This document shows positions 3,738 to 5,487 of a stretch of 20,129 bases of DNA, piece after piece. The notes under the pieces are model-generated. The model did not search any database. It worked only from the letters and a program-made list of their open reading frames with translations, and had not been told where the DNA came from. The stretch comes from a virus, in the IMG/VR virus record IMGVR_UViG_3300023439_000008, positions 1-20,129 of that record, one strand, 5' to 3'. How positions within the stretch are numbered: position 1 is the first letter of the stretch; every line of letters starts with the position of its first letter. Made by a program: the position numbers and the translations under genes.

Positions 3738-4010
3738 ATGCCTGAAAACGACATCGTCTCCGACATCATCCAGCGCCTGGCTGAATCGCTGGGGGCTGAG
3801 ATCGTGCCGCCGGAAGTTTTGATGCGCATTGAGGTGGAAATCCGCCGCGACTGGGCCGGCGACACGGTGTATGTCAAAGCCAATCGGACGCAGCATCGCA
3901 ATGCCGATCTGTTGCAGAAATACCGCCAGGGCTGGAGCGTGGATCGCCTCGCCGCCCGCTACGGCCTGACCCCGCGACGCATCCGCCAGATTATCAACTG
4001 CCGGAAATAA
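3738..4010 (+). CDS. Mor-like transcription activator/HTH protein
   Basis: This encodes 90 residues. The C-terminal half (NADLLQKYRQGWSVDRLAARYGL, then TPRRIRQII) is a helix-turn-helix of the Mor/C transcription activator type, and the N-terminal half (DIIQRLAESLGAEIVPPEVLMRI) fits the Mor dimerisation part. Mor of phage Mu activates middle transcription as a dimer. The start is three bases after the large terminase stop in the same frame, with no well-spaced ribosome site, so re-initiation after the terminase is likely. Such small Mor-like genes occur in other prophages next to terminase genes; what this one regulates is unknown. A gpW-type connector would often sit here in lambda-like phages, and it instead appears at 4942. 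Confidence 0.72.
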   Translation: MPENDIVSDIIQRLAESLGAEIVPPEVLMRIEVEIRRDWAGDTVYVKANRTQHRNADLLQKYRQGWSVDRLAARYGLTPRRIRQIINCRK

Positions 4011-4053
4011 CCTGTACCATATTGCCACACAAAAAAATAATGCAAAAAAGCGC

Positions 4054-4082
4054 TTGACTTAATTACGCCAAAAGCGTAAGAT
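4054..4082 (+). promoter_or_regulatory. Sigma70-type promoter for the accessory cassette
   Basis: The -35 element is TTGACT (4054-4059), then a 17-base spacer, then -10 TAAGAT (4077-4082). The -35 matches consensus at five of six positions and the -10 at four of six, with ideal spacing. It lies in the largest gap in the head region, directly before the AT-rich gene at 4134. It is the best promoter I can see in the window and would transcribe the three-gene cassette independently of the late operon. Confidence 0.72.
4063..4079. promoter_or_regulatory. Palindromic operator within the cassette promoter
   Basis: TTACGC (4063-4068) and GCGTAA (4074-4079) form a perfect inverted repeat separated by CAAAA. 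The palindrome fills the spacer and overlaps the -10 element, so a bound protein would block RNA polymerase. The obvious candidate ligand is the XRE-family protein encoded at 4539-4862, the last gene of the same unit, giving negative autoregulation. The palindrome is seen directly; the protein-site pairing is inference. Confidence 0.7.
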
Positions 4083-4133
4083 GCACCTATCCCGAGAGGG
4101 AAGTCAAAGCGGCACGGGGTGCGGGAGATTAAA

Positions 4134-4403
4134 ATGAAATTATACACAAACTATGAGGTTCTGCTAAGCGGGGATGATCCAGTTCAAATTTACAAAAACA
4201 ACGGAAAAAAAATTGCAGTTGTTACCTTAAATCAAGTAAAAAAAGCCCTAAACAATAATGGGGCGCAAGTAGTCATTGATGCAGGTTGTAAAAGGTTTGG
4301 TTTCATGCGTGAAGATGTCGTTGCATTTATAAAAAAATACACGAATGAGAATACAGACTTTCACACATTTAATGAAAACATGAATAGATTGAGGGGGATT
4401 TAA
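4134..4403 (+). CDS. Unknown small protein of the accessory cassette
   Basis: I choose ATG 4134, preceded by GGGAG at 4123-4127, over an in-frame GTG at 4119. The 89-residue product is Lys- and Asn-rich and encoded by distinctly AT-rich DNA compared with both flanks. I do not recognise it. The stretch from about residue 33 to 69 (NQVKKALNN to FGFMREDVVAFIKKY) ends in a pattern reminiscent of the wing of excisionase/MerR-type HTH domains (small residues, then aromatic, then R-E/D-x-V-x-A-hydrophobic), but the preceding helix pair is not convincing. It is first after the promoter/operator. In cassettes inserted in late operons such genes often act in lysogeny, for example in superinfection immunity, but nothing here proves that. 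Confidence 0.65.
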   Translation: MKLYTNYEVLLSGDDPVQIYKNNGKKIAVVTLNQVKKALNNNGAQVVIDAGCKRFGFMREDVVAFIKKYTNENTDFHTFNENMNRLRGI

Positions 4404-4404
4404 G

Positions 4405-4542
4405 ATGGTAGAACAATACCGGTTAGAAAATGAGTCTGTGTATGAATATGATTACGACGCAGATGCTTATATTTTCATAGGCAATTTGAACGGAGAAAGC
4501 TTTGATGATTTCATCGAAGCTTATGAACATGGTGAATCATGA
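4405..4542 (+). CDS. Tiny acidic protein of the accessory cassette
   Basis: This encodes 45 residues from ATG 4405, one base after the previous stop, with a strong GAGGGGG purine tract at 4391-4397. The product is highly acidic and Tyr-rich (SVYEYDYDADAYIF, then ESFDDFIEAYEHGES). The stop overlaps the XRE start (ATGA), which together with the ribosome site makes it a convincing coding sequence despite its size. Function is unknown. A small acidic protein beside a DNA-binding regulator could be an anti-repressor, DNA mimic or antitoxin-like partner; that is speculation from charge and position only. Confidence 0.65.
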   Translation: MVEQYRLENESVYEYDYDADAYIFIGNLNGESFDDFIEAYEHGES

Positions 4543-4862
4543 GTGTTATAAAAGCCGCCCGTGCCGCGATGGGAATGAGCCAACCAGCATTCGGTGCGTG
4601 GCTGTCGGATAAAATCGGGCGCGCCGAACCGATCCCGGCAAGTCGGATTTCGGAATGGGAGTCCGGCAAACGCTCCCCGCGCAAAAACGTGAGGGACGCC
4701 TGCCTGCCGGTTGTCGCCGGTGAAATCGCAAGCGATGCTGTATTTCAGGTGGCCGGGGTGTTCCGGGTTGCTGGCGTTGATGTGCTGAGCATCACGCTAT
4801 CGCCCGAAATGAAGGCTGTGAAAGACGGCATTAAAAACAGAATCATGGAAGAAACATCTTAA
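4539..4862 (+). CDS. XRE-family helix-turn-helix regulator
   Basis: This encodes 107 residues. The N-terminal 55 or so form a Cro/CI-type HTH: IKAARAAMGMSQPAFGAWLS gives the first helices, and PASRISEWESGKRSPRK carries the recognition helix and the characteristic E-x-G-x-R-x-P ending. The C-terminal half is a short unrecognised region, shorter than in LexA/CI-type repressors and without a self-cleavage domain. It is the last gene of the cassette and overlaps the 45-residue gene by four bases. The palindrome in the cassette promoter is its likely operator. The HTH is clear; target and autoregulation are inferred. Confidence 0.85.
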   Translation: MSVIKAARAAMGMSQPAFGAWLSDKIGRAEPIPASRISEWESGKRSPRKNVRDACLPVVAGEIASDAVFQVAGVFRVAGVDVLSITLSPEMKAVKDGIKNRIMEETS

Positions 4863-4941
4863 GCTTTTGACTTTCCTCTGCAAAACAAAGTGAAACGTTT
4901 ACCCTAAAAAGTTTCCTCCGGCGGGTTTTGAATGACGCGCC

Positions 4942-5487
4942 ATGGGGATTCCGACCAGCGCGCCGCGCTCATTTTTTGCAGGCGACACCGTCAAATGGCT
5001 GGTGTCCGCGCCTGATTATCTGCCTGCCAACGGCTGGTCGCTGGATGTCAACCTGACCAGTGCCGCCGGCAATCACAGCGTCACATCCACCGACAACGGC
5101 GATGACCGCCACCTGATCACCTTCCCCGTCGCTGTCACCACGGCCATCGCCGCCGGTGATTACACCCTGACCATTGCCGCTACAGACGGCACCGAGCGAT
5201 TTACCATCCAGACCGGCAACATCACCGTGCGCCCGAATCTGCAGAGCGTTGCCGATGGCCGCTCGGATGTAAAAAAGGGGCTGGATAAAATTAACGCGTG
5301 GCTTGGTGGGGACAAGAGCCCGGAAGTTGCAAAATATATGATAGCAGGCCGATCTATGGAGTCATGGCCGCTGGAAGATTTGAGGAAGCATCGGAACTAT
5401 CTAAAGAGGGAATTCGTTGTTGAGCTAAACTCCGGCCCTGGCAAAAAGCCACATCGCCGCCGCCTGCTGACCAGGATGGCCGGCTGA
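4942..5487 (+). CDS. Ig-like/gpW fusion, head-tail connector
   Basis: This 181-residue protein has two parts. Residues 8-98 are a beta-rich Ig-like domain (FFAGDTVKW, then GWSLDVNL, DRHLITFPV, AAGDYTLTI, TGNITVRPN). Residues 105-181 resemble the gpW head-tail joining family: GRSDVKKGLDKINAWLGG, then the hallmark IAGRSMESWPLEDLRKHRNYLKRE. Proteins with this layout are common just before the portal in proteobacterial phages. The start is the first ATG after an in-frame TGA (4933-4935); the ribosome site is weak. The stop overlaps the portal start. By eye the DNA shifts from GC-rich to AT-richer at about 5260, at the boundary between the two domains, then back near 5420. The Ig-like part may be surface exposed or a connector adaptor. 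Confidence 0.75.
   Translation: MGIPTSAPRSFFAGDTVKWLVSAPDYLPANGWSLDVNLTSAAGNHSVTSTDNGDDRHLITFPVAVTTAIAAGDYTLTIAATDGTERFTIQTGNITVRPNLQSVADGRSDVKKGLDKINAWLGGDKSPEVAKYMIAGRSMESWPLEDLRKHRNYLKREFVVELNSGPGKKPHRRRLLTRMAG

Follow-up and report, generated by a model that had tools for sequence, protein, structure and literature searches.

What is a small unit with a promoter and a regulator of its own doing within a phage head operon? The window, by which we mean the whole stretch of DNA analysed, is an IMG/VR virus record of 20,129 bases, and its ORF list, with Pfam and PHROG matches, gives a lambda-type head module followed by tail genes. The head genes run in the order TerS, TerL (GpA), Mor-like, gpW-like connector, portal and protease/capsid-region protein. 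In relatives the Mor-like gene adjoins the connector, a conserved neighbourhood, and here about 880 b lie between the two. In a portal-alignment scan of bacterial genomes the nearest relatives proved to lie in MAGs of Zetaproteobacteria: L019 (Dive96_bin1.284), with its portal at 86%, and L020 (Mariprofundaceae), at 65%, so the host of the window phage is probably a marine iron oxidiser.

The original prediction was of a self-regulated moron with its own promoter in the head operon, and it gained support from empty sites in relatives, from the operator geometry and from the joint travel of leader and XRE gene. The features of the locus are:

3738..4010, plus strand: Mor-like activator gene, left flank, outside the cassette (Pfam PF08765, 26.1 bits; PHROG 532, late activator)
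4008..4888, no strand: complete inserted unit, its limits taken from relatives in which the Mor gene abuts the pre-connector element
4054..4082, plus strand: sigma-70-type promoter TTGACT-N17-TAAGAT, kept in four other copies
4063..4079, no strand: operator TTACGC-CAAAA-GCGTAA across the -10, a probable XRE site, at the equivalent position in five copies
4083..4133, plus strand: conserved structured 5' leader (scored at 63.5 bits in the window by covariance model R1)
4134..4403, plus strand: ORF1, 89 aa, orphan effector candidate with no relatives found (start ATG at 4134)
4405..4542, plus strand: ORF2, 45-aa acidic protein, retained with the XRE gene in L159
4539..4862, plus strand: XRE (HTH_3) regulator, 107 aa, Aca-type last gene (HTH_3, 22.7 bits)
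4890..4916, plus strand: imperfect inverted-repeat element ahead of the connector and conserved in relatives, right edge of the insertion site, outside the cassette
4942-5487: gpW-like connector, right flank (PHROG head-tail joining)

The insertion site and its cargo

The Mor-gpW gap is 55-64 b, a near-empty site, in four relatives (L005, L007, L020 and L054), and the Mor-connector gap is about 100-160 b in L012, L013, L014 and L055. At the shortest sites the Mor gene abuts a AAAGTGAAA...CCTAAAA...TTTCC element, the same element as at 4890-4916 of the window. L009, L015 and L019 carry different cargo in the slot, with an insert of 1.8 kb in L019. The near-empty sites and the other cargo argue that the cassette was inserted, and the Mor-connector slot is a cargo site. 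The unit proposed between the Mor-like gene and the gpW-like connector was thus recovered, with its limits widened to about 4008-4888. It holds the promoter, operator, leader, 89-aa ORF, 45-aa ORF and XRE gene.

As in a moron, the insertion lies between genes that are adjacent in related phages, the unit has its own promoter (present in five copies), and its composition differs, ORF1 and ORF2 having 34.5% GC. No 409-nt segment outside these two ORFs is as low, among 18,902 examined. The XRE gene has 56% GC, like the flanks, so the predicted contrast in composition with both sides holds for the effector candidates and fails for the regulator. This difference suggests that ORF1/ORF2 and the XRE gene are of separate origin.

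Other occupants of the slot are varied. L015 (340-880) has TTGACA-N17-TACACT together with two small proteins, one of 59 aa whose C-terminus is hydrophobic and an HTH protein of 61 aa that resembles Aca1 of JBD30 (33% over 55 aa, E 5e-9 in a two-sequence comparison), which makes it a candidate for a second acr-aca-type cassette. L009 (1030-1690) has a PemK-like gene that is apparently frameshifted, as we read the sequence; 3' of it, a promoter-like site and terminator occur where no ORF is obvious, a stretch that is possibly a small RNA. A second variable cargo site lies between TerS and TerL (L013 2690-4160, L014 2960-3745), and one of the L014 cargo genes there resembles the gene just 3' of TerL in L008.

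The element at the right edge of the slot is an imperfect inverted repeat, GTGAAA...CCTAAAA...TTTCC, shortly 5' of the connector start, which has no clear Shine-Dalgarno. It also lies 5' of the gpW-like gene in L005, L006, L007, L008, L009, L012, L013, L014, L019, L020, L054 and L055, and no repeat of this type was seen in L015. The arms covary in L008 and L014 around a constant core. Its possible roles are as a site bound by the Mor-like activator or as a hairpin that controls the head operon.

A control module shared by different cargo

Judged from the window alone, neither the promoter nor the operator is strong: there are six perfect 6-N5-6 inverted repeats in 20 kb (4.9 expected) and four promoter-like sites in 1.8 kb (1.4 expected). 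Their significance comes from the five leader copies, which place the inverted repeat identically relative to the -10. The combination of promoter, operator and leader occurs as five copies in four elements (the window, L019 twice, L159 and L162), each time before different ORFs. The offset of the repeat from the -10 is constant throughout, and the repeat is perfect in three copies and has 5/6 in two. The promoter and operator are thereby shown, on comparative grounds, to be conserved elements. In the window both stand where they were originally predicted, the promoter at 4054-4082 (TTGACT at 4054-4059, a 17 nt spacer, TAAGAT at 4077-4082) and the palindrome over the -10 at 4063-4079.

While the operator geometry is constant, the arm sequences are lineage-specific. 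The window and one L019 copy (L019b) have TTACGC-N5-GCGTAA, the other L019 copy (L019a) TTACTC-N5-GCGTAA, L159 TACTTC-N5-GGAGTA and L162 CTAGCGC-N5-GCGCTAG, with both arms altered together in L162. The arms differ in lineages where the XRE protein has diverged, as would be expected of an operator paired with its repressor. An inverted repeat within the core promoter, a feature by which acr-aca operons are judged (PMC9410906), was found in all five copies.

The leader contains two short hairpins, UCCC-GAGA-GGGA at 4090-4101 and GCAC-GGG-GUGC at 4112-4122, the second followed at once by the Shine-Dalgarno (4123-4127). A covariance model built from four copies found the fifth blind in G002 (40.6 bits, E 1.8e-7), on a contig that also carries an XRE homolog found independently by protein search. 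Hairpin 1 has a different sequence in L162 with the pairing retained, and in L159 a G-C pair at the base of hairpin 2 is exchanged for A-U; these comparisons involve five sequences, too few for a formal covariation test. Against shuffled sequences the fold is not significant in the window (z -0.7) and moderate in the other copies (-1.1 to -2.4). As these z-scores are weak, the claim for structure rests on the paired changes and not on energy. A search of 398 Pseudomonadota genomes with the leader model matched only G001 and G002, which suggests that the module is confined to its group, and a DNA pattern scan of viral contigs found no match. The leader probably tunes translation or RNA stability.

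The start of the XRE gene overlaps the end of ORF2 as ATGA, and the protein has homologs in L019 (66% identity), L132 (54%) and L159 (45%). Its AF2 model (pLDDT 93.8) has an HTH, a long helix and a C-terminal helix. The fold had no significant PDB or viral match, the best PDB entry being a YdiL-like protein at E 0.3. Comparison by hhalign with two of the Aca families gave probabilities of 0.3% with Aca1 and 4% with Aca2, so that the regulator belongs to neither of these two and appears unrelated to them beyond a possible HTH. L002 and L003 were considered as counterparts and rejected: their 50% identity is confined to the HTH, and they are ordinary repressors beside integrases in an unrelated context. 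A distant relative (39%) in L133 (1184-1746) lies directly 3' of a 105-aa ORF that has no family, and its Zetaproteobacterium, G045, carries type I-F repeats and Cas6f. This pair is a candidate for a further effector and regulator.

Leader, operator and XRE gene travel together in the four elements with different cargo. In L159, another phage, scaffold-like and capsid-like genes flank the module, and its order is leader, an unrelated 116-aa ORF, a homolog of the 45-aa ORF, XRE and an inverted repeat with a T run. In G002 the module (L162/L164) lies between lysis genes and an integrase:

L164 2481-5397 (G002:C95): cassette at the integrase end of a prophage, in which an IbrA/DndC-like gene, a ParB-like gene and two small ORFs stand between leader and XRE

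The order here is leader, 113-aa ORF, 137-aa ORF, IbrA/DndC-like, ParB-like, XRE (54%). Constant conservation with head genes would have spoken against the original prediction, and the module, placed between scaffold-like and capsid-like genes in L159 and next to an integrase in G002, shows no such constancy. The comparison rests on four elements (window, L019, L159 and G002), all derived from metagenomes or MAGs, and the collections searched may omit near-identical records.

As in acr-aca operons, the HTH gene comes last, behind small effector ORFs. The joint travel of XRE and leader, the changes in the operator and the precedent of the tested Aca families (PMC9410906) together suggest that the XRE protein would be an autorepressor of the cassette promoter.

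Effector candidates and the choice between explanations

The two small proteins of the original prediction are present at the expected 89 and 45 residues, and so is the XRE regulator, of 107 residues. Neither ORF1 nor ORF2 has a family above cut-off in Pfam or any in NCBIfam, PHROG or PADLOC, and neither matched the known Acr family models. ORF1 has no homologs in viral contigs, genomes, phages or plasmids, and a chance-level match (E 0.0097) is all that 78 Zetaproteobacteria yielded. A Pfam match of ORF1 to DUF6849 was rejected (E 4e-4; 20.8 bits, under the cut-off of 27), and its structure model was unusable (pLDDT 46.5). Compared with three ORFs that follow the leader elsewhere, two in L019 and one in L159, it shows no relationship. 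ORF2 has a homolog in L159 (63% identity over 43 aa), at the same place before XRE in the head operon. Of the two proteins it had been proposed to seek beside other XRE genes, the 45-aa protein was therefore found and the 89-aa protein stands as an orphan. The copies show that putative effectors are swapped behind a conserved leader.

The slot of the sister phage L019 also bears on what the cassette may be for. Between Mor (end 3100) and the connector (4950) it has one leader copy with a 113-aa ORF, a second with a 152-aa ORF and, at its end, the XRE homolog; a counterpart of ORF2 is absent. On the opposite strand of this slot lies a further element:

L019 4292-4415, minus strand: intergenic element of a zetaproteobacterial prophage, a candidate RNA anti-CRISPR of type I-F, with promoter-like site, I-F repeat, repeat-like hairpin and terminator

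The promoter-like site, TTGACC-N17-TACGAT, is immediately upstream of a complete type I-F CRISPR repeat, GTTCACTGCCGCACAGGCAGCTTAGAAA (Rfam CRISPR-DR4, 50.1 bits, E 4e-9). The repeat is followed by a degenerate second repeat-like hairpin, its stem altered yet still paired (CTGCT/AGCAG), and then by the terminator; the RNA folds at -37.6 kcal/mol with a z of -4.9, terminator included. The repeat pattern matches once in the L019 genome, and an array is therefore absent. Other Zetaproteobacteria carry the same repeat, identical in sequence, and in some of them it forms arrays. Solitary CRISPR repeats serve as RNA anti-CRISPRs and are found in clusters with acr genes (Camara-Wilpert 2023, PMC10651486). 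The L019 element is such a solitary repeat of the host class's type, with no adjacent cas genes or array, and by analogy it has the anatomy of an RNA anti-CRISPR (PMC10651486). Cas6f is present in 8 of 78 Zetaproteobacteria genomes, and a search of the L019 MAG, a bin of unknown completeness, gave none. A comparison of 138 zetaproteobacterial I-F spacers with these phages gave chance-length matches only and no protospacer.

We lean, if only slightly, towards reading the cassette as a moron of acr-aca-like layout, in which the XRE protein would be a new Aca-type autorepressor and the effectors are probably anti-defence proteins, most likely directed against type I-F CRISPR-Cas. On infection the promoter would fire at once, giving the 89-aa and 45-aa proteins, which would disable a defence of the host, with type I-F CRISPR-Cas the likeliest target. 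As the last product of the operon, the XRE protein would dimerise, bind the inverted repeat over the -10 and shut the promoter, which would also limit read-through into the head genes. We infer the repression, the early timing and any anti-CRISPR activity of ORF1 and ORF2. An anti-defence role for the two ORFs is suggested by the decoy repeat of L019, the Aca1-like gene of L015, the presence of I-F systems in the host class and the acr precedent (PMC4378225, JBD30). The purpose first suggested for the cassette was immunity, defence or host modulation in the prophage state. The L019 decoy repeat and the acr-aca layout favour anti-defence genes that fire early and are then repressed, and make the prophage timing less favoured.

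Several observations stand against the anti-CRISPR reading. The window contains no CRISPR-repeat-like element, nor does L159, its proteins match no Acr, and the G002 cargo genes are not known anti-CRISPRs. The distance of the XRE protein from Aca1 and Aca2, the failure to find Cas6f in the L019 MAG and the lack of a matching I-F spacer among those sampled count the same way. A possible link from the cassette to anti-CRISPR is the solitary I-F repeat in the L019 slot, outside the window, and not a known Acr protein. We use the term cautiously because the regulator also serves IbrA/DndC-like and ParB-like cargo. That cargo at the G002 prophage end, the PemK-like gene in the slot of other phages and the orphan status of the effectors all fit a self-regulated moron with cargo unrelated to CRISPR, controlled as in the preferred reading and serving superinfection exclusion, anti-restriction or lysogenic conversion expressed from the prophage. 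It is a possible explanation, if a doubtful one, as the sister phage has an I-F decoy repeat beside the same regulator and L015 an Aca1-like gene in the slot. The anti-CRISPR reading is favoured over it, with a regulator that serves other genes too.

It is improbable that the cassette is a type II-like toxin-antitoxin system, in which ORF1 or ORF2 would be the toxin and XRE both antitoxin and repressor. The small ORFs that overlap the XRE gene, the operator in the promoter and the frequency of XRE antitoxins would all suit one. A toxin should stay with its antitoxin, and no recognisable toxin does so: Pfam, NCBIfam, PADLOC and PHROGs gave no toxin family, the leader-proximal ORF is exchanged between copies, and ORF2 is missing from L019. 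A late virion accessory unit of the head operon, decorative or connector-associated, would suit the location between terminase/Mor and connector and the occurrence of accessory decoration genes in head operons (PMC4378225), but is highly improbable for a unit that is absent from L005, L007, L020 and L054, has its own promoter and probable repressor and also occurs at a prophage end near an integrase.

Comparison with known systems

In Pseudomonas Mu-like phages acr genes sit in a low-GC variable region (PMC4378225). All tested acr-aca operons have the operator within the core promoter, and the Aca protein of each family tested represses a promoter that has an inverted repeat inside it (PMC9410906). 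Like acr-aca operons, for example acrIF1-aca1 of the Pseudomonas phage JBD30, the cassette has an HTH gene behind small orphan effectors and an inverted repeat inside its core promoter, is low in GC and occupies a variable slot among head genes. It differs in a regulator unrelated to Aca1 and Aca2, in an additional structured leader repeated before each effector, in the other cargo framed by the regulator and in effectors that are putative. It would thus work like an acr-aca operon, and we do not file it as one because its effectors are only putative CRISPR inhibitors and its XRE protein shows no recognisable relation to Aca1 or Aca2. In a search of the literature, which was not exhaustive, neither anti-CRISPR loci nor Acas turned up as reported from Zetaproteobacteria.

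The L019 element resembles Racr (PMC10651486): its single I-F repeat is intergenic, stands directly 3' of a promoter-like site within a candidate acr locus and has the same sequence as the host class's repeats. It differs in its degenerate second repeat-like hairpin, and it belongs to a sister phage, outside the window. Phage morons likewise have their own promoter, a different composition and a presence in one phage but not its relatives. Unlike them, the cassette has no terminator-like site 3' of XRE within the window, and its control element and regulator are found at three genomic positions, carrying different cargo.

If our preferred reading is right, the locus provides a candidate new Aca family and a repeated leader-operator element that tags variable effectors, with two candidate effectors in the window, several in relatives and a ready RNA anti-CRISPR candidate in L019. 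Effectors could then be found through their control element despite unmatched sequences, the main obstacle to the discovery of anti-defence genes. More tentatively, promoter-operator, leader RNA and XRE may be a mobile control socket: zetaproteobacterial phages would duplicate it and carry it between genomic positions, connecting another anti-defence effector, whether protein or RNA, on each occasion; the leader would then be a search handle for unknown anti-defence genes.

The XRE protein also resembles Aca2 of Pectobacterium phage ZF40, an XRE-like autorepressor of about 110-120 aa, with no significant sequence similarity to it (hhalign, as above). The XRE protein or its 45-aa partner may act on both operator DNA and leader RNA. 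Aca2 also binds its mRNA leader, which would parallel the conserved leader of the cassette.
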